DNA from: a virus
Length of the DNA stretch: 42,111 bases
Strand: one strand, 5' to 3'
IMG/VR virus record: IMGVR_UViG_3300017527_000425
Coordinates: 1 to 42,111 of that record
A program made the position numbers and the translations under genes. Shown piece after piece: positions 100 to 42,111 of the stretch. The number at the start of each line of letters is the position of its first letter. Positions within the stretch are counted from its first letter, which is position 1. Under the pieces are notes generated by a model. The model was not told the DNA's origin. It did not search any database and saw only the letters and a list, made by a program, of their open reading frames with translations.

Positions 100-1977
100 C
101 CTGATGGCAATGTCGGGATTAAAACGGCGGCTCCATCAACTGCTTTAGAGGTTACGGGTACGGTGACAGCAACGGAATTTGCAGGTGGTGGTGGAAGCCT
201 CACAGGTGTCGATGCAGCAACCGGAGACTCAGCGACAGATTTCTTTGACGCTGGAGAATTTGCAGATGCCAGAGTCCCGGATGCCCATTCCCACGCCGCA
301 GATGCTATAGACGCCATAACCGAAATTGCGGCTGCGTTAAAAAGCGGTTCTGATGGCAAAGTGATAACGGGAACCGCTGGGACAAGCACCTATACTGCTG
401 TATGGAATGCTGACGGCGATCTGGTAGACGGGGCCGACCCGTCCACTTATGCCCTGACAACATCTATCAACACAACAGCAAAGTTGGAAACAGTATCCAA
501 TGCCGGGGCGTATGCAAGCGATATCTTAGACGTTACCAACCAAGCTGGATTGACCGCACTAATTGCTGCTGGGACAATTTCGACATCTGGCGCGGTCGAA
601 TTAGCCACCAATGAAGAAACGGTGACCGGTACGGATACGAGCAGGGCGGTCACACCTGATGGCTTGACAGATAGGTTACTTACGCCTGGCGGTATAGGTG
701 CAGGCACTCCATCAACCGGAGACTTTACGACTATTTCTGCCCAATTGATGGCATCTTCCCTTGGTGCGACGATGGCAAATGGCGGTTATTATAGGATTGC
801 AACCCAAACCAATGGTCACGCATGGGCAATCCAAATCTATGATACAGACGGTGCGTGGGTGGATGCCATGACATTCACTAACAGCGCCACACCTACAATC
901 ACGTTTAACGCGATTTTGGCAGGGTTAGGAGCATGGAACGGTAACTTTGTATCGGCTACAAACGCAACTGATGACCTTGGTTCAACTGCTATCGGATGGG
1001 ATGATTTATTTCTTGCTAATGGTGGTGTAATTCAATTAGGTGATGACCAAGATGTGACCGTAAAGCACGTCCATGACGCAGGTTTGAATATGAAGCAAGT
1101 TACCGATGCTGACGATAATCCTTTTATTCTGATACTTCAAACGGGCGAAACCGACATGGCCGTTGATGATGTATTAGGCGGTGTGTACTTTCAGGCACCG
1201 GATGAAGGCACCGGCACAGCCGCCATCTTGGTGGCGGCTGGTATCGAAGCGGTGTCCGAGGGAGATTTCGCAGCGGATTCCAATGCAACTAAACTTAGTT
1301 TTCAGACAGCGTCAAGTGCCACGGCTGCCGAGACAATGTCGCTTAGTTCTGGTGGAAATCTTGCTGTAACCGGAAGTGTCACAGCTACCACGTCTTTCAT
1401 TAGAGGCACTGCGGACCTTAACGAAACCGACCTTGAGAAATTAGACGGAATCACAAATGGCACTCAAGCGGCAAATAAAGCGGTTGTTGCAGACGCCAAC
1501 GTGAATACCGGAGTGTCAAAGGTGACTGAGCTACACATGGGAACATCCGGTTCTGAGGTAAAGATAACCCATCCTGATCGTGCTGTATGGTTAGGTCGGG
1601 ATTTTTCAAAAACAGACCTGACAAACGGAGCAACTCAAACGGCATTGTCTGAAGCAACCCTAATGGCAAACTATTGGATTGCCAATAATGGAGGGTCGGC
1701 TGAAGAAGATATTCTTTTGGTTGACATTACTTTCCCGATTAAATTCGCCCTGACTGATGAAGAAGGAACTGGTTATGAGGTTTGTCCCCCGTCAGGTGAA
1801 CAATTTGACCTTAATAACGGTGAAACACTCTTAACCGCTGATTATTGTATTGAATCTGGTGGCGATAAAGGAGACATGGCAATATTTATACGCGGTGAAG
1901 ATGAAGACGGTGCTTGGATATGGCGAGTTAGGACAGTACAGGGTGCTTGGATAGATGGAGGAGATTCCGGTGATTAA
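1..1977 (+). CDS. Long fibre-like protein, C-terminal part of a junction-spanning gene
   Basis: This is the continuation of the gene that starts at 41440; position 1 is the first base of a codon in that frame. The joined gene is 2,550 nt, or 849 residues. This part is rich in Gly, Thr, Ala and Asp with few Lys. It has short beta-prone repeats and fibre-like phrases (EVTGTVTA, GTPSTGDFTT) of the kind seen in phage tail fibres and in bacterial surface proteins with trimeric beta structure. I see no peptidase S74 or other catalytic domain. It ends at a TAA that overlaps the GTG start of the next gene by 8 nt, so the two are probably translationally coupled. An ATG at 163 is internal and should not be taken as the start. 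The fibre role is inferred from composition and place; the exact family is not recognised. Confidence 0.85.
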   Translation, partial: DATNYLTAVLLDDGHTTFTTVDPDGAEADINFAPDGNVGIKTAAPSTALEVTGTVTATEFAGGGGSLTGVDAATGDSATDFFDAGEFADARVPDAHSHAADAIDAITEIAAALKSGSDGKVITGTAGTSTYTAVWNADGDLVDGADPSTYALTTSINTTAKLETVSNAGAYASDILDVTNQAGLTALIAAGTISTSGAVELATNEETVTGTDTSRAVTPDGLTDRLLTPGGIGAGTPSTGDFTTISAQLMASSLGATMANGGYYRIATQTNGHAWAIQIYDTDGAWVDAMTFTNSATPTITFNAILAGLGAWNGNFVSATNATDDLGSTAIGWDDLFLANGGVIQLGDDQDVTVKHVHDAGLNMKQVTDADDNPFILILQTGETDMAVDDVLGGVYFQAPDEGTGTAAILVAAGIEAVSEGDFAADSNATKLSFQTASSATAAETMSLSSGGNLAVTGSVTATTSFIRGTADLNETDLEKLDGITNGTQAANKAVVADANVNTGVSKVTELHMGTSGSEVKITHPDRAVWLGRDFSKTDLTNGATQTALSEATLMANYWIANNGGSAEEDILLVDITFPIKFALTDEEGTGYEVCPPSGEQFDLNNGETLLTADYCIESGGDKGDMAIFIRGEDEDGAWIWRVRTVQGAWIDGGDSGD

Positions 1978-3442
1978 AAAACTAATTTTAATATTTGCTG
2001 TATTTTTTCTACTTGGTGGGGTTGGGTGGGGTGAGACATATTACTATGTAGATCCTGATTTTGGAGGGACACCGGATGGGAGTGCCGCTACTCCTTGGAC
2101 GTTAATCGATAATGAGGGTGCAGTTAATGAATGGACTGCTATTAATTCGGCGCTTGCTTCTGATTCGGTTACAATATATTTTTCAGCACGCAATGCTTCA
2201 GCAGATACAGACGAAACCGCTACGGATAGCATAGAGGTTTTACGGACGGACGGTAGCGCAAATCGACTGACATTAGATGGAATGTCACAATATAACACTA
2301 ATGACTCAACTCCATCTTGGTCGGCGTATAGCGGTAGTAGTCGTTTTACCGTAACTGCCTCGTATCCTTTGGATTTTTTTGAAAGAGATACCGAAACTAC
2401 AGTTTCCGACAATATAACCGTCCAGGGGTTTCATTTTGACACAACTGGTGGATTTTGCGCTTACATCGGAGGGGATAATCTTATTATACAGGACAATGAG
2501 TTTGAAGCAACCGCCCCACAGGTCGGACCACTGGTACAGTTTAGATATTCTGATGATGTTGGTGTGCAAACAAATTTAATTTTCCGCCGAAACACATTAC
2601 ACGACACACACGGGGAGGCACTATACATTGGCGGAGATGGCAATAATGGAAATCCCAGTCATACTTATATTTATATTTACGAAAATGAGATTTATGATAT
2701 CGGCACTCTTGGGGGCGAAGGCGACGGGATTGATATAAAAGACGAGATGCGTTATGTCTATGTATATAATAATTATCTTTATGATATAGGCAATATTGGT
2801 ATTGTATCTCATACGTGGGACGATATTTATATATATAATAACCTAATTTACTCGGGGGGTAGTCACGGCATCGCTTTAAACGGTTCCTTTGGCACCGGAG
2901 GTGATCTTGCTGCTATATATGGTAACATAATATATGATCATGGCACATCTGATGATAGTTACGCCATTGCCTTAACCGCAACACATGATGGTGATGAGGT
3001 TGACGATGTTAGAGTATATAATAATACTATCAACAACAATGAGCGGGGGATTGCTTTTAGTGCAACTACGGATGGTGATTTTACAAATGCAGTAATGCGA
3101 AATAATTTAGTGACCAACAATGACGAAGTAGGGGTAAAAGCATATAATGTTACCCCTACTTTTTTTAATAATGATGTGTATAATAATACTGATAATTATC
3201 AATCAATTGCTGAGCAGGGAGGTAGTAACGGTAACATAACAGTTGATCCTCTATACGACGATGCCGGTTCAGGTGATTTCAACTTAGACCCAAGCTCCCC
3301 AGCATGTTTTGGAGGCACAGCAATATCAGGATATAACACAAGATTAGACCCAACATCCTCCTGGCCGGATGATGTGAGAACAAGGGGCGATACAAGACAA
3401 ATGGGCGCTCATGTTTGCAATGGTGGCGCTGCGGGAATGTAA
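1970..3442 (+). CDS. Secreted right-handed beta-helix protein (pectate-lyase-like fold)
   Basis: The start is chosen as GTG 1970, because a GGAGGAG lies 6 nt upstream and the protein then begins with a classical signal peptide (IKKLILIFAVFFLLGGVGWG, then ETYYYVDPDFGG). An ATG at 1955 lies before that SD. The opening YYYVDP..GG..DGS.ATPW is typical of parallel beta-helix surface proteins and phage polysaccharide depolymerases. The repeated N-N-x-I/L-Y/x-D-N rungs over residues ~130-430 fit a right-handed beta-helix. No catalytic triad can be assigned by eye. It probably binds or cleaves host surface polysaccharide. Unlike its downstream paralogue it stops before a conserved C-terminal tail that is present, out of frame, in the following DNA (3459-3515). 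Confidence 0.85.
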   Translation: MIKKLILIFAVFFLLGGVGWGETYYYVDPDFGGTPDGSAATPWTLIDNEGAVNEWTAINSALASDSVTIYFSARNASADTDETATDSIEVLRTDGSANRLTLDGMSQYNTNDSTPSWSAYSGSSRFTVTASYPLDFFERDTETTVSDNITVQGFHFDTTGGFCAYIGGDNLIIQDNEFEATAPQVGPLVQFRYSDDVGVQTNLIFRRNTLHDTHGEALYIGGDGNNGNPSHTYIYIYENEIYDIGTLGGEGDGIDIKDEMRYVYVYNNYLYDIGNIGIVSHTWDDIYIYNNLIYSGGSHGIALNGSFGTGGDLAAIYGNIIYDHGTSDDSYAIALTATHDGDEVDDVRVYNNTINNNERGIAFSATTDGDFTNAVMRNNLVTNNDEVGVKAYNVTPTFFNNDVYNNTDNYQSIAEQGGSNGNITVDPLYDDAGSGDFNLDPSSPACFGGTAISGYNTRLDPTSSWPDDVRTRGDTRQMGAHVCNGGAAGM

Positions 3443-3533: not shown

Positions 3534-5267
3534 ATGAAACGACTAATTTATATCCTGATAATTTTTTGCTTTACTGCGAATGTGTGGGGGGCGACCTATG
3601 ACGTTTGTGCTTCTGGTTGTGATGGAACGATAGCAAATTTTGAAGCTGGTGATTCCCCGTTTGATGCCCTGGCATCAGATACAGTTACTTTTACCGACTC
3701 AACCCAAAATGCAACTCTTGTGTTTCCTGATTCATTTGGGACTCAGGAATCACACCGCGCCACTCTTGTTTTCACTGGAGTTACGATAACAGTTGCTGGT
3801 TCATGCCTGGACACTAACGGCAGAGATTATGTAACGATAAGTGGGGGAACGTTCAGCGGGGGTAATGGGTCAACCGCATGTATTGAGGTTGATGCAAACT
3901 CTGTAGGTATTACGCTTGATGGAATCACCGTAAACCCGAATAGTGGGAATAATAGACTTTTTAGAATATGGGAAGGTGCCAATTATTTTATATTGAAAAA
4001 TAGTACAATTAACTCTCAGACTACAACGCAAAATGCCTTTCATGTCTACTTGGCTGGAGGAACTGCGTTAACAAATGTAACTATTGATAATAATACATTT
4101 ACTGGAGGTGGGGGTCATATTCTTCATGTGGTACCTCCTGGAGATGCCGGTACAGATATTACTGATTTTGTAATTTCAAATAATACTTTCACCGATTGGG
4201 GAGATAGTGCCGGTGATGTTGTTATCAGAATCATTTGGAAAGATTCAACTGTAGTGAGTGGTCTGACTATTTCCGGTAATACCTTCACTGACGGACAAAG
4301 AGGACTTCTTATCGAAGGTGATCACACCGAAGCTTCAATCGCGGCATATGATATAGATATTGATGGTAACAGCTTTAGCGACACAGGATCAATTGCAGCT
4401 ATTGACATTAATACCGTAACCTCTACAGCAGGAACATCATATATACGAAATAACATAGTGTATAGAGCAGGCGGTTCTGGAGGATATGCAACTATTAATG
4501 GGTTAAGGTGTGGTGTTTGTAACGGTGTAATAATTGAAAACAATGAAGTTTCATATTCAAATAGTTTAACTACGGATGGAAATGGAATCATTGTCGATAA
4601 ACACGAGATTGACAACGTTGACAACCAACCAAGTGTTAATGTGATAGTCCGAAATAATAGAGTTCACGATAATACGACTATCGGTGGACGGGGAATATCG
4701 GTTTATGTTTCGACTGGTACAAAAGTTTATAATAATATTTCTTACAGCAACACAAGAGGTATTGGAGCCGGCGGAAATGCAACTCAAGCATCAAGCGGTA
4801 CTTTAGTTTACAACAATACGCTTTACGGAAATTCTGATGCTGGTTTGCAGGTTCGACAATATGGCGGCGATGTAACAGCCAATAATAACATTCTTGTGGG
4901 TAATAACTATGGAGTTCTCGAAGAAAGCAGTGCAGACACACCCACGATAGATTATAATTTATATGATAACAATACGACCGCCGATGTATCTGATGAAGAT
5001 GCCGGGGCGCTGGCAAAAGGAGCAAATGCAGTGTCTTCAGATCCCAAATTCGTCAACGCAGCCGGTGGAAATTTCAATTTGGCAGAAGGTTCGCCAGTAA
5101 TCGACGCCGGTGTAGATCTATCTGGCACGTTCACCGACGATTATTTAGGCCGGACGAGACCGTATGGAGACGCCTGGGACATAGGCGCTTATGAATATGC
5201 AGACAAATTGATATCAGGTGGAGCTAACACGGTATCAATAGGAAGCAATTCGATAGGTGTGCCGTGA
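3534..5267 (+). CDS. Secreted right-handed beta-helix protein, paralogue of the previous one
   Basis: 577 residues. The N-terminus is a Sec signal peptide (MKRLIYILIIFCFTANVWG, cleavage likely before ATYDVC). The body has many IxNNTFT / VYNNT rungs, as in Pfam-type beta-helix proteins, then a C-terminal segment of the kind SPVIDAGVD..DYLGRTRPYGDAWDIGAYEY. That closing phrase is very common in bacterial secreted beta-helix proteins (choice-of-anchor type). It ends with the tail GGANTVSIGSNSIGVP, also found in shifted frame behind the upstream gene. Role inferred: host-surface polysaccharide recognition or degradation by a tail spike, or a protein exported by the infected cell. The signal peptide is odd for a virion protein. 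Confidence 0.85.
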   Translation: MKRLIYILIIFCFTANVWGATYDVCASGCDGTIANFEAGDSPFDALASDTVTFTDSTQNATLVFPDSFGTQESHRATLVFTGVTITVAGSCLDTNGRDYVTISGGTFSGGNGSTACIEVDANSVGITLDGITVNPNSGNNRLFRIWEGANYFILKNSTINSQTTTQNAFHVYLAGGTALTNVTIDNNTFTGGGGHILHVVPPGDAGTDITDFVISNNTFTDWGDSAGDVVIRIIWKDSTVVSGLTISGNTFTDGQRGLLIEGDHTEASIAAYDIDIDGNSFSDTGSIAAIDINTVTSTAGTSYIRNNIVYRAGGSGGYATINGLRCGVCNGVIIENNEVSYSNSLTTDGNGIIVDKHEIDNVDNQPSVNVIVRNNRVHDNTTIGGRGISVYVSTGTKVYNNISYSNTRGIGAGGNATQASSGTLVYNNTLYGNSDAGLQVRQYGGDVTANNNILVGNNYGVLEESSADTPTIDYNLYDNNTTADVSDEDAGALAKGANAVSSDPKFVNAAGGNFNLAEGSPVIDAGVDLSGTFTDDYLGRTRPYGDAWDIGAYEYADKLISGGANTVSIGSNSIGVP

Positions 5268-17341: not shown

Positions 17342-17863
17342 ATGGAAAAAATGATAAAACATAGTCAATTAAGAAAAGCAGCAATTAATCGTTTTAAAGA
17401 AGAGAATTTCACAATATCAAACAATATTTCCTATCGGGATCTTGCTAGTATTATAAATATAGCGACTGGCTGGGGTGGTGTTTTAAAGAAGAGCAAAAAA
17501 CAAGTATATAAAGAGAAAATAAGGCGATTTTATTATGAAACTCCAAGCATTGACAATACTAAGGTAAATTTTTTAAAGTATCAGCAAGCGAAAATTCCTA
17601 AAAAGAAAGAATTTTGTCAAACGGATGATTTTTTAGGTTCGTTTGAGTGGCGTAGGGTGAGGTTTGAGGCATTAAAGAAAAATAATGGTTGTTGCGAGCT
17701 TTGTGGCAGAAATAAGCATGATGATATTAAATTAAATGTTGATCATATCAAACCCAGGAAAAAACACCCTGAATTAGCTCTTGATGTGAATAATTTACAG
17801 GTTTTGTGTAATGAATGCAATCATGGTAAGGGTAACTGGGATGAAACGGATTGGAGGAAATGA
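17342..17863 (+). CDS. HNH endonuclease
   Basis: 173 residues. The C-terminal domain holds C118/C121, D134-H135 (NVDHIKPRKKHPELALD), N151, C156/C159 and H161 (CNECNHGKGN), then a typical TDWR end. Residues 98-112 (LGSFEWRRVRFEALK) are the usual lead-in of this HNH group. The N-terminal ~90 residues are basic and helical and may bind DNA. Likely a homing-type or free-standing phage nuclease; the structured region in front supports mobility but does not prove it. GGGA is the only weak SD. Confidence 0.9.
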   Translation: MEKMIKHSQLRKAAINRFKEENFTISNNISYRDLASIINIATGWGGVLKKSKKQVYKEKIRRFYYETPSIDNTKVNFLKYQQAKIPKKKEFCQTDDFLGSFEWRRVRFEALKKNNGCCELCGRNKHDDIKLNVDHIKPRKKHPELALDVNNLQVLCNECNHGKGNWDETDWRK

Positions 17864-24204: not shown

Positions 24205-24915
24205 GTGGTAAAATTAAATACTATAACAACGATTGAACTTTCATCTGCTTGTAATTTAAAATGCAGTTATTGTGTGAACAGGCTCATTGGTGTAAATTCA
24301 GATAGAGTACCAGGAATAATGAGCGATTCGGTGTTTAGTGCATCGGTAAAGCTTTTGAAGAGGTTGGTTGATAGAGGAACCCAAAAAGAAATCAGTTTAA
24401 ACGGGAACGGCGAGAGCTTTTTAGACACATCACTCATAGAACGTGTTAAAACAGTAAGGAAGATTCTCGGAGATAACAACTTATTGTTAATGTCAACAAA
24501 TTCTACGCTTGTGACTAAAGAGATTGCTATTTCGTTGAAAGATGCGGGTTTGGATGAGATTCATACGTCGATACATAAACCGGAAGCGGTTAGAAAGGCG
24601 TTGCCGATATTTTCTGATGCAGGGTTGAAAACCGTTATCAATGCAGGGGTTATTATATTTTCTCATAACTGGGCAGGGCAACTTGAAGATGAAAACAAAG
24701 TGCCCAAGGAAAGGTTGCCGGACATTCAATGCGACCCGCTTATTGACGGTAGAGGGTACGTGTCGGCAGAGGGGAACATAAGCCCATGTTGTTATGACTA
24801 TCGGAATATAGGAGTATTTGGGACTGTATTTAATAAAGATATACTGGATAAAGAATACGGCGCATATGAGTTGTGTCGTGGATGCCATCAGGTAATACCA
24901 CCGGAATTATTATGA
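24205..24915 (+). CDS. Radical SAM enzyme 1
   Basis: 236 residues. C16-x3-C20-x2-C23 (ACNLKCSYC) binds the catalytic 4Fe-4S cluster that cleaves SAM. GNGE, LLLMSTNST and the beta/alpha strands follow the radical SAM barrel. The C-terminal part has CC (SPCCYDYRNIGVFG) and CRGC, which could hold one auxiliary cluster as in SPASM/twitch enzymes. Starts at GTG 24205; weak SD. It is paralogous to the next gene and overlaps it (ATGA). Such enzymes often modify peptides, but many other substrates exist. Its place between the portal and protease/scaffold genes is unusual. Confidence 0.88.
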   Translation: MVKLNTITTIELSSACNLKCSYCVNRLIGVNSDRVPGIMSDSVFSASVKLLKRLVDRGTQKEISLNGNGESFLDTSLIERVKTVRKILGDNNLLLMSTNSTLVTKEIAISLKDAGLDEIHTSIHKPEAVRKALPIFSDAGLKTVINAGVIIFSHNWAGQLEDENKVPKERLPDIQCDPLIDGRGYVSAEGNISPCCYDYRNIGVFGTVFNKDILDKEYGAYELCRGCHQVIPPELL

Positions 24916-25649
24916 AAATTATTGAGACAATCAACACCATTGAGCTTTCGTCGGTCTGTGACAATAAGTGCCAGTATTGCCCGGCGCGATTGCAGTCCGA
25001 GCATAGACTTACTGGCTTTATGTCATGGGCGACATTTAAGCACGCTATTGATAAAGCCTTAGTCTTTGCGCGAGCCGGAACACAGCGGGAAATCAACCTG
25101 TTCGGGGTAGGTGAGCCAACGCTGCATAAATATATAGTGGCTATGGTACGCTATGCCAGGGAGCATTTACCGTTTAATCAGGTTTTGCACCTGAATACCA
25201 ATGGCAACACCATGACGATGCAACTCGCCAAGGACCTAAAGGACGCCGGCATCACGTCGATTGACATAACGGGCCACGATCATGCTGTAACTGCAAAAAC
25301 AATTAAAATATTCCGAGAATTAGAAATAGTTGGAAATTTGTCATATGATTTTGTCACTGCTCCGAACAACTGGGCGGGTCAAGTGGATTGGTTTGAACCT
25401 GACACCCGGCTACCAGTATATCGTAATAATCCCTGTCCGTGGCTGGAACGTGGCCAGGTTATGGTGATGAGTGACGGCCTTATCACGACTTGCTGCATCG
25501 ATGCCTTTGGGCGAAACGTTATTTGCGACATATCAGACAACCTTGAAAATTTTGAGGTTGCAGAAAGTGAGCTATGTAAAAGCTGTCATCACAAAATCCC
25601 GGAAACATCATCAAAATTTGAGCAGACCTTAGACTTGATGGCGGTGTAA
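24912..25649 (+). CDS. Radical SAM enzyme 2
   Basis: 245 residues from ATG 24912; an upstream ATG at 24873 lies inside the previous gene and is not used. Cysteines at the same positions as in the first paralogue, C16, C20 and C23 (VCDNKCQYC). Shared phrases include ETINTIELSS, NxWAGQxD/E, a GxGE strand and a C-terminal CKSCHHKIP. The C-terminal CC and CxxC may bind an auxiliary Fe-S cluster. Tandem duplication followed by divergence is clear. Substrate unknown. Lies 21 nt before the protease/scaffold gene, so it is made with head proteins. Confidence 0.88.
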   Translation: MKIIETINTIELSSVCDNKCQYCPARLQSEHRLTGFMSWATFKHAIDKALVFARAGTQREINLFGVGEPTLHKYIVAMVRYAREHLPFNQVLHLNTNGNTMTMQLAKDLKDAGITSIDITGHDHAVTAKTIKIFRELEIVGNLSYDFVTAPNNWAGQVDWFEPDTRLPVYRNNPCPWLERGQVMVMSDGLITTCCIDAFGRNVICDISDNLENFEVAESELCKSCHHKIPETSSKFEQTLDLMAV

Positions 25650-26947: not shown

Positions 26948-27322
26948 ATGGCAACTGAAAATAAAAATTGGTTCCTGACCTTTGAAGCGGCAGAGGATCT
27001 TTCATCGTTGGAGTACCAGATTGTTACGATTGCTGACGACAAGATTGCCAATGATGGCCAGGAAGCCACTGGGGTACTGGTATCTAAACCGAAATCAGGT
27101 GAACATGGATCGATCATGTTTATGGGGATCGGAAAGGCCAGGGCCGGTGGAGCAATCGCAAAAAATGGTGTGTTTAAGACCGTCACATCCGGGTATATCT
27201 CGGCGGCAACTTCTGGTGGCTGGGTAAATGGTCGCGCACTTGAGGCAATCACGTCAGGGAGTATCGGTAAAATTTTCTGGCATGGCGTAAACCAGTATCA
27301 GGTTAGTTCGATTGATGGATAA
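26948..27322 (+). CDS. Head decoration protein (DUF2190-like)
   Basis: 124 residues, GGAGGT upstream. Small beta-rich domain with the phrases GIGKARAGGAIAKNGVFKTV, SGGWVNGRALE and SGSIGKIFW, the pattern of capsid-stabilising/decoration proteins that trimerise on HK97-type shells. Just before the capsid gene, which fits. Confidence 0.85.
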   Translation: MATENKNWFLTFEAAEDLSSLEYQIVTIADDKIANDGQEATGVLVSKPKSGEHGSIMFMGIGKARAGGAIAKNGVFKTVTSGYISAATSGGWVNGRALEAITSGSIGKIFWHGVNQYQVSSIDG

Positions 27323-27338: not shown

Positions 27339-28301
27339 ATGGGAGCACGAGGACACGATTTACATATTGACCAGCCACTGAGCAACGTGGCAATGAGCTA
27401 CAGGCCGGAGGGCATGATCGCTGATATTGTAGCGCCGGAGGTTCCGGTGCAAAAGCAATCAGATTCATATACGATATGGTCACAAGCCGATGCCCTGCGG
27501 ACTGAGGACGATAAACGAGCCCCGGGAACCGAGGCTAACCTGATCACTCGTGGTGTATCAAGTGATACGTATTTCGCCAATAACTTTGCGCTGAAATCCG
27601 CATTGACATTGGAGGACCGCGAGAATATGGACGCCGCTTTCATCCAACAGTTGCGAAACGGCAAAGTTGAATACATCAAAGATAAGCTGACCCTTAACTG
27701 GGAAAAACGTCTTGCGGACAAGGTGACGAGTGGCTCAAATGTTGGCAGCTATTCAACAATAGATTCTGACTGGCAAGATTATACCACGGGCCAATCAGAT
27801 CCTATCGGAGATATGCAAACGGCGATTACCAATGTTCAGGATGCCACCGGGTATCGTCCCAACCGTTGCCTCATGGGTGGCCTTGCTTGGCGTCATTTCC
27901 GAAGGCATGAAGACGTTATCGATCTTTTGTATGGGTCCTCTGGCCAGGGCAAAGTCCGTTATGCCTCACGCGAACAGGCAAAGGAAATCTTCGAGGTGGA
28001 TCAACTTATCATTGGTGAAACATACTACAACAGCGGCGCTGAAGGTCAAAGCCTAGCATTGCAACATATGTGGTTAGATTATGTCTTGGTCTATTATGCA
28101 CCTTCACGGCCCTCTCGGGAAACGCCCAGTTTCATGTATTCATTTCGTTGGAAAAAACCCGCTATCCCAAATATGGCGGCAGAGGTTCATCCGTTCGACC
28201 GCAAGACAAAATCAGAGGAGGTCGAGCTTGGCTATTACCAGGACGAAAAAATCACTGGCGCTAACCTGGGGTTTCTTTTAACTCATGTAACCAGCGTTTA
28301 A
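27339..28301 (+). CDS. Major capsid protein
   Basis: 320 residues, GGAGGTGAT upstream. The type (ISNxAMSYRPEGMIADIVAPEV start, RAPGTEANLITRGVSSDTYF, LEDRENMDAAF) is the HK97-fold major capsid group found with DUF2190-like decoration proteins in siphoviruses. The C-terminal half holds the A-domain (YYNSGAEGQSLALQHMW, SRPSRETPSFMYSFRW). Forms the shell. A 12-bp hairpin follows its stop, and a glycosyltransferase gene lies downstream, so it may be glycosylated. Confidence 0.9.
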   Translation: MGARGHDLHIDQPLSNVAMSYRPEGMIADIVAPEVPVQKQSDSYTIWSQADALRTEDDKRAPGTEANLITRGVSSDTYFANNFALKSALTLEDRENMDAAFIQQLRNGKVEYIKDKLTLNWEKRLADKVTSGSNVGSYSTIDSDWQDYTTGQSDPIGDMQTAITNVQDATGYRPNRCLMGGLAWRHFRRHEDVIDLLYGSSGQGKVRYASREQAKEIFEVDQLIIGETYYNSGAEGQSLALQHMWLDYVLVYYAPSRPSRETPSFMYSFRWKKPAIPNMAAEVHPFDRKTKSEEVELGYYQDEKITGANLGFLLTHVTSV

Positions 28302-28334: not shown

Positions 28335-28362
28335 GCGACCAGTCTCACGCGAGACTGGTCGC
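28335..28362 (+). promoter_or_regulatory. Perfect 12-bp hairpin after the capsid gene
   Basis: GCGACCAGTCTC and GAGACTGGTCGC with an ACGC loop. No T-run follows, so it is more likely a 3' end stabiliser or partial transcription barrier that keeps capsid mRNA more abundant than the downstream genes. Confidence 0.65.
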
Positions 28363-28383: not shown

Positions 28384-28545
28384 ATGCTGCGCGATGATGC
28401 GATAAAAAAGGGCTTGATAAAGCCAAAGGATAAAGAAGAGGCCGACCGATTCGGGATGGATTTTCAGCCGGTCAACATACCGAAATCCGAAAGACCAAAC
28501 GTGTCGACGACTCCAAAGTATCGGCATAAAAAGAAATCAAGATAA
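28384..28545 (+). CDS. Small basic protein between capsid and glycosyltransferase genes
   Basis: 53 residues, AGGAG upstream of ATG 28384. Begins with a charged helix (MLRDDAIKKGLIKPKDKEEA) and ends in a very basic tail (PKYRHKKKSR). No family recognised. Such short ORFs after the capsid gene can be head-stabilising proteins. It could also be a substrate for the neighbouring modifying enzymes, but nothing in it shows that. Confidence 0.5.
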   Translation: MLRDDAIKKGLIKPKDKEEADRFGMDFQPVNIPKSERPNVSTTPKYRHKKKSR

Positions 28546-28569: not shown

Positions 28570-31488
28570 ATGAGAATAATATTTCATGTTGGTGGCATGC
28601 CTTTTAACGGCTCCACTATTTCGGATGGAAAGAGCCTCGGCGGGTCAGAAAGCGCCGGGTATTATATGGCGAGGGAGATGGCCAGGTTAGGCCATGAAGT
28701 TGTAATTTTTACCTCGTCACCTGACACCGGTTTTTCAGATGGCGTGTTTTTTGAATGGATGGGGGAACGCTCGGAGCAATACCCGCTCGGCCACAGGTTC
28801 GACGTTTCCAGCAAGGTTCCCGCAGATGTAACTATCATCCAACGTATACCGTTTGCGTTCCGCAAGCCGATCAACTCAAAATTAAATATATGGTGGGTAC
28901 ATGATATCGGTTTGATGCGTCACTCCATGATCGTGCAGCAACAACTCGTTAATATCGATCAGATATTTACCGTTTCAGAATTTCATAAAAACCAATTCGC
29001 AAAAGTGTTCGATATTCCAAAGCATATCATTACCGCAACATTCAACGGGGTTGATTATACGTATCCTGAAGAACTGGAAGCGCAAAATTTACCACGGGTA
29101 CCAAAGTCGCTGGTTTTTGCATCGAGACCTGAGCGAGGACTTGAAAACCTTGTGGGCCGCAACGGAATAATGAAAAGCCTGCCTGATTGTCACCTGTATG
29201 TATGTGGGTATGACAATACCGTTCCCCAGATGAGGGACTATTACCGGTATTTATATAACAGGTGCGACCAACTGGACAATGTGACAAACCTTGGCAGCCT
29301 CGGTAAAAATGAATTATATAAGTTACTTGCAAAGTCGGAGTTGTGTGTATACCCAACCACCTTTGAAGACACCAGCAACATGATGTTGCTTGAATCCAAT
29401 GCGGTCGGTACGCCGTTTATTGGGCCAAAGGATCGCGCAGCACTTCCGCAAACCGGCCATAACGCCGGTGTGAAATTTGTGCCATTAAAAGACGGGAAAA
29501 TCCACAAACAGGCATTTGTGAAATGTATAAAAGAATGTCTCGAAGCATCCACCTGGGATAGGCTCCACATTAAAGCGCTCGGCAAAGAACAGACATGGAA
29601 AGCGGCTGCTATGCAATGGGATCAGGTATTCAACGACCTGTTATATTATAAATGCAATGATAAAAGGCGTTTATACAAACACCTGGAACATCATAGCGAT
29701 ATCATTGCCATAGGTGAGGACCACCCGGCACCGGACATGCAACTTCTGGAAAGTGTTCTTCCCGGGTTCAGAAAAAACTACGAGTTTTTGTATAATAACG
29801 ATTTCAAGGGCCACTATGATCGCTATTATGAGTATGAGGAAAGCAGGGGCGTAAAATATGGCCCTGAAGATCTAACCGGGCAGCCCAGGTTTGAGCACAC
29901 GGCACGGCTGATTGATGAAATGGGTCCAGGTGCAATACTTGATTACGGATGTGCCCACGGACATTATGTTATGAACCTTATGAACCGGTATCCGCATATA
30001 CGTTTTTTCGGGGCTGATATAAACGCGAAAAACATAGAGATTGCGAGGCGTTGGGCACTTGATGTCATTGGCGACAAGTCCGAGCAGGATCAGGCGCTGG
30101 ACACGGTTAATAATTTGTTTTTTCAGTCAACAGCAGATGATGATTTTGACCTTGCTTGCAATGTGGACGTTATCTTGCTTCAGGAAATTTTGGAGCATGT
30201 TCCCAATCCGGGAACTTTGGTTGAACAGTTAAGTACGCACCTGGCACCGGAAGGGCATTTTTTAATATCGGTCCCGTATGGTCCATGGGAGGCCCTGGGG
30301 TATAAAAAACACCCTGGATGGAGAGCGCATATCCATCATATCGAACGTGAGGACCTTTATGAACTATTTAGGGCACAGGAAGACTTTAAACTGATCGCGT
30401 TGCCACACAGAGACAATATGGGCCACTATATTGTCACGTTTAAGTATAACCCTGATATACCTATCGGCAAAATCGATTATGTCCGCAAATTAAAACAACA
30501 GGCACCACGTGAAACATTATCAGTTTGCATGATCGCAAAAAATGAGCAGCACACTATTGGAAGGACCATTGAGTCGATAATAGATATTGCGGATGAAATA
30601 ATTATAGGCCTGGATGAAACTACAACAGATGAAACCTACGCAGTGGCCATGCAGTTTGTTGGCCCTGAAAATATCATCCCGATTAAATCACCGATGGAAA
30701 CCGGGTTCGCCGTGGCAAGGCAGGTAACTATCGATGCCGCTTCTATGGATTGGATATTGTGGATTGACTGCGACGAAACTTTCGAGCAAGCTGAGAACCT
30801 ACCGAAATACTTACGCAATAACTGTATGGATGGATATGGAATCAAGCAACACCACTATGCAGTTGAGCCTGCGGAGTTGTTTAAAACAGATTACCCCTGC
30901 CGGTTATTCCGCAATAATAAGGGCATGAAATTTTTTGGCTTTGTCCACGAGCACCCGGAAAAAGAAATGAACAAGGGCCCTGGTAAAACTCATCTTATCG
31001 ATGACGTGGCTATTATGCATACCGGATATCCGACCGAGCAGGTGCGGCGGAAACGGTTTGAGCGCAATTTCCCGTTGATACAAAAAGATCGGGAGCTTAA
31101 TCCCGATAGAAATCTTGGAAAATTCCTGTGGGTACGAGACCTCGCCCACTTCGCCCGGTACAGCATGGAGCAAAACGGCGGGGTTGTAACCCCACGGATT
31201 GAAGATGCAGCTGCCCAGGGAATTGAGATGTGGCGTGAACTTTTAAAGACTGGCGACCTTCGGCTGATCACGCAAAGTATCCCGTTTTATTCCGAATGTG
31301 TTTATCGATTAATGAACGGCAACGGCATTGATTTCACCCTGGCGATCACTTCGGGTAAGGGTGGCAATCGTTTTGTATTGCCGGACCGAAAGATCGAGGG
31401 TTTGTTTGCCAGCATCGAGGACATTAAAAAGCTAAATAAAGTTATCGTTGACAAGTCTGTCGAGCATTACGAAAATAAATATTATTAA
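28570..31488 (+). CDS. Trifunctional glycosyltransferase (GT4) - methyltransferase - glycosyltransferase (GT2)
   Basis: 972 residues, three domains. ~1-365: GT-B fold like GT4 (GGSESAGYYMAREMARLGHE, VFASRPERGLENL, then YPTTFEDTSNMMLLESNAVG with E266 and E276). ~430-620: class I methyltransferase (LDYGCAHG at 457-464, FFGADINAKNIEIARRWALD, LLQEILEHVPNP). ~640-960: GT-A fold like GT2 (LSVCMIAKNEQHTIGRTIES, IIIGLDETTTDET, WIDCDE at 731-736 as the DxD-like metal site). It should build and methylate a glycan, most likely on a virion protein, because it lies between capsid and connector genes. Capsid and tail glycosylation by structural-operon GTs is known in some mycobacteriophages. Confidence 0.88.
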   Translation: MRIIFHVGGMPFNGSTISDGKSLGGSESAGYYMAREMARLGHEVVIFTSSPDTGFSDGVFFEWMGERSEQYPLGHRFDVSSKVPADVTIIQRIPFAFRKPINSKLNIWWVHDIGLMRHSMIVQQQLVNIDQIFTVSEFHKNQFAKVFDIPKHIITATFNGVDYTYPEELEAQNLPRVPKSLVFASRPERGLENLVGRNGIMKSLPDCHLYVCGYDNTVPQMRDYYRYLYNRCDQLDNVTNLGSLGKNELYKLLAKSELCVYPTTFEDTSNMMLLESNAVGTPFIGPKDRAALPQTGHNAGVKFVPLKDGKIHKQAFVKCIKECLEASTWDRLHIKALGKEQTWKAAAMQWDQVFNDLLYYKCNDKRRLYKHLEHHSDIIAIGEDHPAPDMQLLESVLPGFRKNYEFLYNNDFKGHYDRYYEYEESRGVKYGPEDLTGQPRFEHTARLIDEMGPGAILDYGCAHGHYVMNLMNRYPHIRFFGADINAKNIEIARRWALDVIGDKSEQDQALDTVNNLFFQSTADDDFDLACNVDVILLQEILEHVPNPGTLVEQLSTHLAPEGHFLISVPYGPWEALGYKKHPGWRAHIHHIEREDLYELFRAQEDFKLIALPHRDNMGHYIVTFKYNPDIPIGKIDYVRKLKQQAPRETLSVCMIAKNEQHTIGRTIESIIDIADEIIIGLDETTTDETYAVAMQFVGPENIIPIKSPMETGFAVARQVTIDAASMDWILWIDCDETFEQAENLPKYLRNNCMDGYGIKQHHYAVEPAELFKTDYPCRLFRNNKGMKFFGFVHEHPEKEMNKGPGKTHLIDDVAIMHTGYPTEQVRRKRFERNFPLIQKDRELNPDRNLGKFLWVRDLAHFARYSMEQNGGVVTPRIEDAAAQGIEMWRELLKTGDLRLITQSIPFYSECVYRLMNGNGIDFTLAITSGKGGNRFVLPDRKIEGLFASIEDIKKLNKVIVDKSVEHYENKYY

Positions 31489-32872: not shown

Positions 32873-33835
32873 ATGGCTTACGGACAGGACGGACATTTCG
32901 GAATAGGTTTTCAGGATAGCATGGGCACCAGTCTCACCGATTCAATGGATTATTTCGGATTTGTATCTGAAACATTGACACAGAATATCGAGGAGTTGAT
33001 GAGCGAGAGCCTATCATCCAGGTATGAGGAACCAGATGATTATGGTGGTATGCGGGAGATAGGCGGTGACATTGTCGGGGAAGTGCAGCCCCTTTCCTTT
33101 GGGAAGTTTCTAAAAGGATGGTGCGGCCAGGAGAGTGTTAGCTTTCAGGAAAGCTGTTACAGTCACTTGTTCGTACCGAGGCTAACCGACTGGCAAGAGG
33201 AAAACGCCGCACTTCCCCCAATGACTGTCGAGGTATACCGGGATACTGGGTCGGCATATCTTTATTATGACGCAATGATCGATACGCTCAATATCGAAAT
33301 CGCGCAGGGTGCGTTGATAAAATTTACAGCCGGGTTCAAAGGGTCTCAATTTTCATGGGCTGAAAAAACCACACCGGCCTATGATCCTGGGAGCTATTTC
33401 GCGTGGGACATTGCATCTATCAGCCTGGCGGGGGTGGCCATGACGGAATTTTCAAGTCTCAGCCTGAACTTTTCGAATAGCCTTGCAGGTAAAGCGTATA
33501 TCGATGGCAATAAATACGCCTCCCGGATTCTGCGGGACGGTTTTAGGACCGGAGAAATTTCGGGCACACTCTTGTTATCCGGTGACGATGAGGCTCGGAA
33601 TTTTAAAAACCGCACCAAGCAACGATTGCTTATATCTATCACAGATCCGACAACGGTAATGAACCATCATAACCAGTTGATTATAGATATACCGAAAATG
33701 GTATATACCGAGTTCCCTGCGAACATATCTGGGCCCGGATTGGTGGAGGTGTCCTTTTCTGCTAAGGCCAAGTATGACTCGGATTCATCTTATGCCATGC
33801 AGTTTACACTGACAAATACCGTCGAGGCATACTAA
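32873..33835 (+). CDS. Tail tube protein
   Basis: 320 residues, GGAGG upstream. GHFGIGFQDSMGTSLTDSMD.., then PDDYGGMREIGGDIVGEVQP, and later ISLAGVAMTEFSSLSLNFSN with DGFRTGEISGTLLLSGDD are characteristic of large siphovirus tail tube proteins with two beta-barrel halves. Forms the stacked rings of a non-contractile tail. No sheath gene follows, supporting siphovirus morphology. Confidence 0.85.
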   Translation: MAYGQDGHFGIGFQDSMGTSLTDSMDYFGFVSETLTQNIEELMSESLSSRYEEPDDYGGMREIGGDIVGEVQPLSFGKFLKGWCGQESVSFQESCYSHLFVPRLTDWQEENAALPPMTVEVYRDTGSAYLYYDAMIDTLNIEIAQGALIKFTAGFKGSQFSWAEKTTPAYDPGSYFAWDIASISLAGVAMTEFSSLSLNFSNSLAGKAYIDGNKYASRILRDGFRTGEISGTLLLSGDDEARNFKNRTKQRLLISITDPTTVMNHHNQLIIDIPKMVYTEFPANISGPGLVEVSFSAKAKYDSDSSYAMQFTLTNTVEAY

Positions 33836-41180: not shown

Positions 41181-41435
41181 ATGAGAAAACTAATTCTGAT
41201 AATCCTGACAATTCTTTGCTTCGCTGCGTATGAGTATGTGGGTTTGGGTGGCTTGATTAGTAGCCCTCTGGCTGCATTAATAAGACCTGTTGTGCGGGGG
41301 CTGATATCAGATAGTCTTGTCAGGTGCCCGTCTGACGATTCTGATTGTCAGTATGCTGTGACCCAAAACAATATTTTATTTAGTACGGATAACGTAACCT
41401 TTGGAACCGATAACATTTATTTTGGGGAGTCTTAA
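41181..41435 (+). CDS. Secreted or membrane-anchored small protein
   Basis: 84 residues. N-terminal hydrophobic segment (MRKLILIILTILCFAAYEYV) acts as signal or anchor; a second hydrophobic stretch follows (GGLISSPLAALIRPVVRGLI). The end carries two imperfect repeats (NNILFSTDNVTFGTDNIYFG) like the start of a fibre. It is 4 nt before the large fibre gene. Confidence 0.55.
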   Translation: MRKLILIILTILCFAAYEYVGLGGLISSPLAALIRPVVRGLISDSLVRCPSDDSDCQYAVTQNNILFSTDNVTFGTDNIYFGES

Positions 41436-41439
41436 AACT

Positions 41440-42111
41440 ATGAAAAAACTACTAATTTCAATTATCTTGTCGATTGTGCTGTCTTTTCCTGTTTGGGCAG
41501 CGGATATTGATTGTGACGATACAGGGACCCCAAATGACGCAATGGATGTTAATTGCGGGGGGACTGATGCCACAACGCTGACAGACGGTGGCGTATTGTT
41601 GGGATCTGGAACGGGGCCGGTAACACCAATGGCTGTGTTGACTGATGGACAAATGATAGTTGGCGATGGGACCACGGACCCGGTGCCAGAATCAGGTGCG
41701 ACTCTCAGGACTTCCATTGGTAGCCCTGCCATAGACGATTCTGCCCTAACCGGAAATCCCGTAATCACGGACGCAGACCCAGGCTTGACATTCAATGACA
41801 GCACCGATGCCGCCGGGACTGCTAACATTCTATTTGGAACCACTCAGGCGACAAGGGATGTTGTAGCGACATTACAGGTAGACGTTAATAATACACCAGT
41901 GACATATATAACCTTAGACGGGACAAACGAAGATGTTGACGTAGCAAAGCCGCTTAACGTGGCCGGTAAAATAGCAGGGACAATAACCACAGAGCAACTT
42001 CGTCTAAGCTACGATGCGACAAATTACCTCACAGCGGTTCTATTAGATGACGGACATACGACTTTCACCACCGTTGACCCTGATGGTGCGGAAGCCGATA
42101 TCAACTTTGCA
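41440..42111 (+). CDS. Long fibre-like protein, N-terminal part (runs through the window end)
   Basis: Starts at ATG 41440 with GGGGAG about 10 nt upstream and is open to the end of the window, then continues at position 1 (the joined gene is 849 residues). A Sec signal peptide (MKKLLISIILSIVLSFPVWA, then ADIDCDDTGTPNDAMDVNCG) is clear. The rest is Gly/Thr/Asp-rich fibre sequence. No catalytic motif. Infer: surface or tail fibre with a signal peptide, in the same cluster as beta-helix proteins. Confidence 0.85.
   Translation, partial: MKKLLISIILSIVLSFPVWAADIDCDDTGTPNDAMDVNCGGTDATTLTDGGVLLGSGTGPVTPMAVLTDGQMIVGDGTTDPVPESGATLRTSIGSPAIDDSALTGNPVITDADPGLTFNDSTDAAGTANILFGTTQATRDVVATLQVDVNNTPVTYITLDGTNEDVDVAKPLNVAGKIAGTITTEQLRLSYDATNYLTAVLLDDGHTTFTTVDPDGAEADINFA
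42013..42111. repeat. Terminal direct repeat, right copy (circular closure)
   Basis: Exact copy of bases 1-99. The codon frame carries over: 41440 to 42012 is 573 nt, an exact multiple of three, so position 1 continues the same frame. Confidence 0.95.

Follow-up and report, generated by a model that had tools for sequence, protein, structure and literature searches.

Late operon and architecture of the fusion protein

The stretch analysed here, referred to as the window, is a virus record of 42,111 bases with a standard head-tail operon on its + strand. The features of this operon are as follows.

20514, + strand: TerL
21997, + strand: portal
24205..24915, + strand: radical SAM protein P0003, a possible glycan-tailoring partner
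24873..25649, + strand: radical SAM protein P0002, with a BtrN-like (Twitch) fold, a possible glycan-tailoring partner
25671, + strand: protease
26948..27322, + strand: small head protein upstream of the major capsid protein; phrog_673, called scaffolding, with a decoration role possible; alternative acceptor
27339..28301, + strand: major capsid protein (MCP); phrog_1005, E 1e-61; Phage_cap_E; candidate acceptor
28284..28298, + strand: C-terminal tail of the MCP, HVTSV, a candidate glycosylation site
28335..28362, + strand: 12-bp hairpin with no T-run between the MCP and fusion genes, a possible expression attenuator or processing site
28384..28545, + strand: conserved small ORF just 5' of the fusion gene, 53 residues, basic
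28570..31488, + strand: GT4-methyltransferase-GT2 fusion P0001, 972 residues
31501, + strand: gp36-like, downstream flank of the fusion
31959, + strand: neck1, downstream flank of the fusion
32873..33835, + strand: tail tube protein (Phage_tube_2), alternative acceptor
34501, + strand: tape measure

The fusion gene is flanked by the MCP gene upstream and by the gp36-like and neck1 genes downstream, in agreement with the initial annotation, which placed it between the capsid gene and the connector genes. Its end is separated by 12 bases from the next start codon, and its G+C content (45.4%) is that of its neighbours (45.7% in the late region), giving no sign of recent foreign insertion. The small ORF that precedes it is kept in several relatives as an ORF of 81-91 residues. 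Elsewhere in the window, beta-helix (spike-like) proteins are encoded at 1955-3442 and 3534-5267, and the product of 17342-17863 resembles HNH endonucleases and weakly matches IscB and retron-HNH models. The open ORFs at the two ends of the window (41401-42111 and 1-1977) share a frame if the record is circular, so it could represent a nearly complete, circularly permuted genome whose ends fall within one large tail-side gene. An Rfam search of the window gave no match, and a search for near-identical named phages found none.

The fusion gene translates to its full length without an internal stop. Pfam models, each scoring over its curated cut-off, and a predicted structure (mean pLDDT 84, pTM 0.81) agree that two glycosyltransferases (GTs) of different folds flank a methyltransferase (MT) in a single polypeptide, as had been proposed from the sequence at the outset. 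The Pfam matches comprise Glyco_transf_4 / Glyco_trans_1_4 in the N-terminal third, Methyltransf_23 at residues 446-602 (E 5e-17), and Glycos_transf_2 at residues 651-755 (E 7e-15). No transmembrane segment was found in P0001. Its regions, with their characteristic motifs, are the following.

28570..29655, + strand: GT4-type GT-B domain, residues 1-362; GGSE 24-27, H111-D112, R186/R189, D267-x7-E275
29887..30429, + strand: class I SAM methyltransferase domain, about residues 440-620; LDYGCAHG 457-464, D483, E542-H543
30502..31149, + strand: GT2 (GT-A) domain, about residues 645-860, GmaR/SunS-related; D682, D733-x-D735-E736, VHEHP 792-796
31150..31485, + strand: C-terminal region, residues 861-972, mostly helical in the structure model

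The model of the GT4 domain resembles GT4-like enzymes (MshA, BshA, HepE) with Z up to 31 over 344 residues. The VIA-align rows for the fusion covered residues 1-361, and the assignments of the MT and GT2 domains come from Foldseek, phmmer, and Pfam. The closest solved structures by sequence to the GT2 domain are those of SunS, ThuS, and GmaR, with homology over about 200 residues (E 6e-13 for GmaR and 2e-12 for SunS). GmaR glycosylates flagellin, and SunS glycosylates a peptide. These are, however, single GT enzymes with differing acceptors, and P0001 lies far below the cut-off of the SunS equivalog model TIGR04195 (56.9 bits versus 350).

Conservation was counted in a set of 115 distinct full-length homologues, the most remote of which have about 33% identity. 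Residues D682, D733, D735, E736, H793, E794, H795, and H817 of the GT2 domain are invariant, as are H111, D112, R186, and R189 of the GT4 domain. The core motifs initially assigned as LDYGCAHG (457-464) and WIDCDE (731-736) stand, while the acidic pair given as E266/E276 had to be replaced, since residue 276 is Ser and the pair is formed by D267 and E275. The first of these columns is Glu in 91/115 and Asp in 24/115 homologues, the second Glu in 110/115. In the MT domain, D458, G460, G464, and D483 are each kept in at least 110/115 (G464 in 114, D483 in 112). With active-site residues near-invariant across all three domains, all three activities appear to be under selection.

Linkage of the fusion to capsid genes

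A scan of viral sequences with P0001 yielded 23 loci, and alignment yielded at least 224 relatives in IMG/VR, 80 of which were kept. The fusion, sought beside other phage capsid genes, is shared by many related phages from the environment, and its relatives sit in phage structural operons, contradicting the view that homologues might be confined to host LPS loci. In all 85 loci with a recognised MCP the fusion lies downstream of the MCP on the same strand (within 400 nt in 64 of them), and such regularity of domain order, place, and strand excludes chance. Since this set had been selected by the fusion itself, the linkage was retested starting from the MCP, using the 80 MCPs most like that of the window among at least 567 MCP relatives. 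The fusion was present within 5 kb downstream in 70 of the 72 loci with enough downstream sequence, some contigs in both the fusion-seeded and the MCP-seeded sets being near-duplicates. The two exceptions look like one phage seen twice, with a GT4-like ORF further on.

A profile of the fusion found no match in the 8-kb stretches around the MCPs of 12 cultured phages, which are distant MCP relatives (about 22-29% identity) with a similar order of head genes. A search of named phages for the full fusion found none and gave six partial matches at 24-30%. Pairwise distances of the fusion domains track those of the structural genes, the GT4 domain and MCP co-varying (r 0.68) as well as MCP and portal do with each other (r 0.69). 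As judged from these sequence comparisons, the fusion has the character of a core gene confined to a single clade and not of a passing moron.

The variants of the fusion differ in the connection, presence, and order of the domains. In one locus (L023) the protein is split into GT4 and MT-GT2, marking a domain border. Four loci, L033-L036, found in MAGs labelled Bacillota, Hebobacteria, and Armatimonadota, encode GT4-GT2 without a methyltransferase; homologues of the tail tube and of one neck-region gene of the window lineage are present there, whereas their MCP belongs to another family, identified in L034 and L033 as phrog_1328, which the fusion follows. The L035 locus, part of an Armatimonadota chromosome and containing a short remnant of an integrase, is probably an old prophage. 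A permuted protein of 1119 residues, GT2-TPR-MT-GT4, is encoded beside a Phage_cap_E-like MCP and a radical SAM gene (L236:8101-11457). In the podovirus ctxSa4 (MW202718, Manatee Spring), with an SU10-type MCP, a GT2-TPR-GT4 fusion and further GTs and methyltransferases follow the capsid gene; like the window, it combines both GT types in one protein, but there is no MT within the fusion, the domain order is reversed, and identity in the GT4 part is about 24%. The strongest case for a role in the virion is that GT2 together with GT4, whether or not an MT is included, is found behind three different MCP families. The four loci that share only tail and neck genes with the window lineage are at the same time a warning that the partner could be a tail protein.

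Candidate acceptor, expression, and possible tailoring partners

A short Ser/Thr tail (NSST, TSST, TSV, GSSQ) is frequent at the C-terminus of MCPs from phages that carry the fusion; it extends a few residues past the end of the MCPs of most cultured relatives that have no GT. At least two Ser/Thr among the last six residues are found in 87/117 distinct MCPs and in 25/39 representatives below 60% identity, compared with 2/12 of the GT-less relatives (Fisher p 0.007 for the representatives, a value that ignores kinship and sets one clade against outgroups). Overall Ser/Thr content is alike in both groups. Two adjacent Ser columns are kept in 27/39 and 26/39 representatives, with variable columns just before them, and a third of the representatives have no Ser/Thr tail. 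The tail is not universal, as an NSST-like end is absent from the phrog_1328 MCP of L034 and the SU10 MCP ends differently. A search for a shared C-terminal motif showed that the MCP and the tail tube both often end near V-N-S/T; this was dropped as evidence, since the stretch in the tube may be a structural strand.

Capsid and tail-tube subunits of mycobacteriophages carry their glycans C-terminally, according to a citation of Freeman 2023 in PMC12619734. Taken together with the Ser/Thr tail of the MCP, this makes that tail the first site to test. From the position of the fusion gene, its recurrence after three MCP families, and the Ser/Thr tail, we infer that the MCP is the acceptor. The glycan originally suggested, on the capsid and also methylated, holds up in the latter respect, three intact active sites making a methylated glycan likely; the capsid as its carrier is a putative assignment.

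The hairpin that follows the MCP gene in the window has a z of -3.64. Perfect stems of at least 9 bp within 130 nt after the MCP occur in 60/122 loci versus 46/610 mononucleotide shuffles, and after other genes of the operon in 6-15%. These post-MCP hairpins are enriched across the family though their sequences differ. Terminators placed after capsid genes lower downstream expression in other phages, and by analogy the hairpin may keep the expression of the enzyme below that of the capsid protein.

The genes of P0003 and P0002 are arranged in tandem, overlapping, between the portal and the protease. The two proteins have in common a WAGQ motif, a CX3CX2C site, and four additional Cys. BtrN, a Twitch dehydrogenase whose substrate is sugar-like, is clearly the best match to the P0002 model, with Z 21.3 over 217 residues compared with 16.9 for the best non-BtrN chain. 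BtrN and P0002 are alike in fold, size, the CX3CX2C site, and four further Cys, but their identity is about 22%, and while BtrN oxidises an aminocyclitol in antibiotic synthesis, the role of P0002 as a dehydrogenase is putative. A scan for this radical SAM family gave 111 viral loci; of the 80 kept, the majority have genes for the portal, protease, MCP, and fusion around them. The WAGQ-motif family in viral contigs is largely confined to such head-gene operons, and a search of named phages for it found none. Within the stretch of sequence examined, the radical SAM gene is present in about a third of fusion-bearing loci and is on that account considered accessory. Relatives carry other genes inserted among their head genes, encoding a sulfotransferase-like protein, a short-chain dehydrogenase, an FkbM methyltransferase, and Methyltransf_11 proteins (L002:4161-4727, L002:12838-13509, L005:1973-2716, and L010:2547-3948). 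In the simplest reading, the radical SAM proteins and these added enzymes would constitute a tailoring set for one glycan.

Proposed pathway, alternatives, and known systems

Taken together, these observations are best accounted for by a core machine, encoded by the phage, for glycosylating the virion in the host cytoplasm, with the MCP as the most likely acceptor; we assign this reading a probability of about two in three. The sequences themselves show the domains, their conserved active sites, a tight and long-standing association with capsid genes, and divergence in step with them; for the rest of this reading we infer a protein acceptor, the MCP in that capacity, a C-terminal site, a particular order of action, and a role for the radical SAM proteins. 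Late in infection, the SunS/GmaR-like GT2 domain would place the initial sugar on a virion protein, the likeliest being the MCP at its Ser/Thr C-terminal tail; the GT4 domain would extend it with a second sugar, and the MT domain would cap the product by methylation. The BtrN-like radical SAM pair, and in relatives the FkbM methyltransferase, sulfotransferase, or dehydrogenase, might alter the sugar further. The closeness of the GT2 sequence to GmaR and SunS, enzymes acting on proteins or peptides, points to a protein acceptor, but GT2 and GT4 domains of such types also act on lipopolysaccharides. We can speculate, more tentatively, that widespread uncultivated tailed phages possess, as a core trait, a self-contained pathway placing a short methylated glycan on the C-terminal Ser/Thr tail of their MCP, which many of them oxidise by radical SAM enzymes or sulfate, a wider scheme with perhaps a minor chance of being correct in full.

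The same machine could instead act on a tail or appendage protein, such as the tail tube or the beta-helix spikes. The tail tube and neck-region homology of L033-L036, combined with an MCP of another family, is consistent with such an acceptor, as are the beta-helix and Lcl_C-domain proteins encoded in relatives directly after the fusion (for instance, a beta-helix protein before the connectors at L011:10892-12325) and the modification of the tail tube as well as the capsid reported for mycobacteriophages. However, the GT2-GT4 fusion of podovirus MW202718 follows the MCP although the sequence examined there lacks a siphovirus tail module of this kind, and in the window the fusion is on the MCP side of the connectors, with the beta-helix genes elsewhere. 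A tail acceptor is considered less likely than the MCP.

Modification of a host surface glycan (LPS or capsule), leading to a superinfection block or a receptor change, appears less probable still. Sets of GT2, GT4, and MT are typical of polysaccharide loci, and phages are known to carry serotype-converting enzymes. Against this, a GtrA flippase was found in 0/13 records (the window and 12 related ones), an integrase in 1/13, so that lysogenic conversion is not the usual lifestyle, P0001 has no membrane segment, and its gene is fixed in the late structural operon. Glycosylation of phage DNA, for which GTs acting on modified bases are known, including those of T-even phages, is very improbable, as no thymidylate-synthase-type hydroxymethylase is present in the window and one clear match was found in the 12 related records, the gene sits between capsid and connector genes, and the closest solved GT2 relatives have protein or peptide acceptors.

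Returning to glycosylation of the virion, several known systems resemble the proposed machine in part. The chlorovirus PBCV-1 protein A064R (GT-GT-methyltransferase) acts on the glycan that capsid protein Vp54 carries (PMC9614988). Like P0001, it is a single cytoplasmic viral protein with two GTs and one MT, and mutants and assays have established that it builds and methylates the end of the capsid glycan; unlike P0001, with which it is compared by domains, it has 638 residues, the order GT-GT-MT, other GT folds and sugars, and a eukaryotic giant virus as its source. WsaE of Geobacillus stearothermophilus (methyltransferase-GT-GT), which participates in S-layer glycan synthesis (PMC2943079), is likewise a trifunctional soluble enzyme, with a chain capped by methylation, but it is cellular, has another domain order, and takes as substrate a lipid-linked chain that an ABC transporter exports, no such transporter being seen in the phage operon. 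In mycobacteriophages, virion glycosylation has been described for Che8 gp110, Corndog gp38, and Myrna (Freeman 2023, as cited in PMC12363180, PMC12619734, and PMC11256854). Phage-encoded GTs are linked there to capsid and tail-tube glycans, much as the P0001 family is tied to virion genes, whereas they are individual GTs (encoded in Maravista close to the genome's 3' end) from phages of actinobacterial hosts, and the passages on them in these sources mention neither a GT4-MT-GT2 fusion nor a radical SAM partner.

Phage virion glycosylation, from mycobacteriophages, and GT-GT-MT fusions, from A064R and WsaE, are known. A search of the open-access literature found nothing on a GT4-MT-GT2 fusion, on a constant position for it behind the MCP gene of tailed phages, or on accompanying radical SAM proteins. 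What looks new is the occurrence of this fusion in tailed phages, together with its core status and the radical SAM partners. For a chemically tailored sugar coat on a phage capsid, no described precedent in phages was found.

Reports of phage virion glycosylation are recent and concern a few actinobacterial phages. If the proposed reading is correct, glycosylated and methylated virions would be a constant feature across a large lineage of environmental phages, produced by one trifunctional enzyme that would offer a compact handle for testing the role of virion glycans in phages and a new GT4-MT-GT2 enzyme for work on protein glycosylation; the radical SAM proteins would have an unusual role in a virus particle. 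MAG contigs assigned to Desulfobacterales, SAR324, and Deltaproteobacteria contain close relatives (L025-L031), a hint at the hosts of this phage group.
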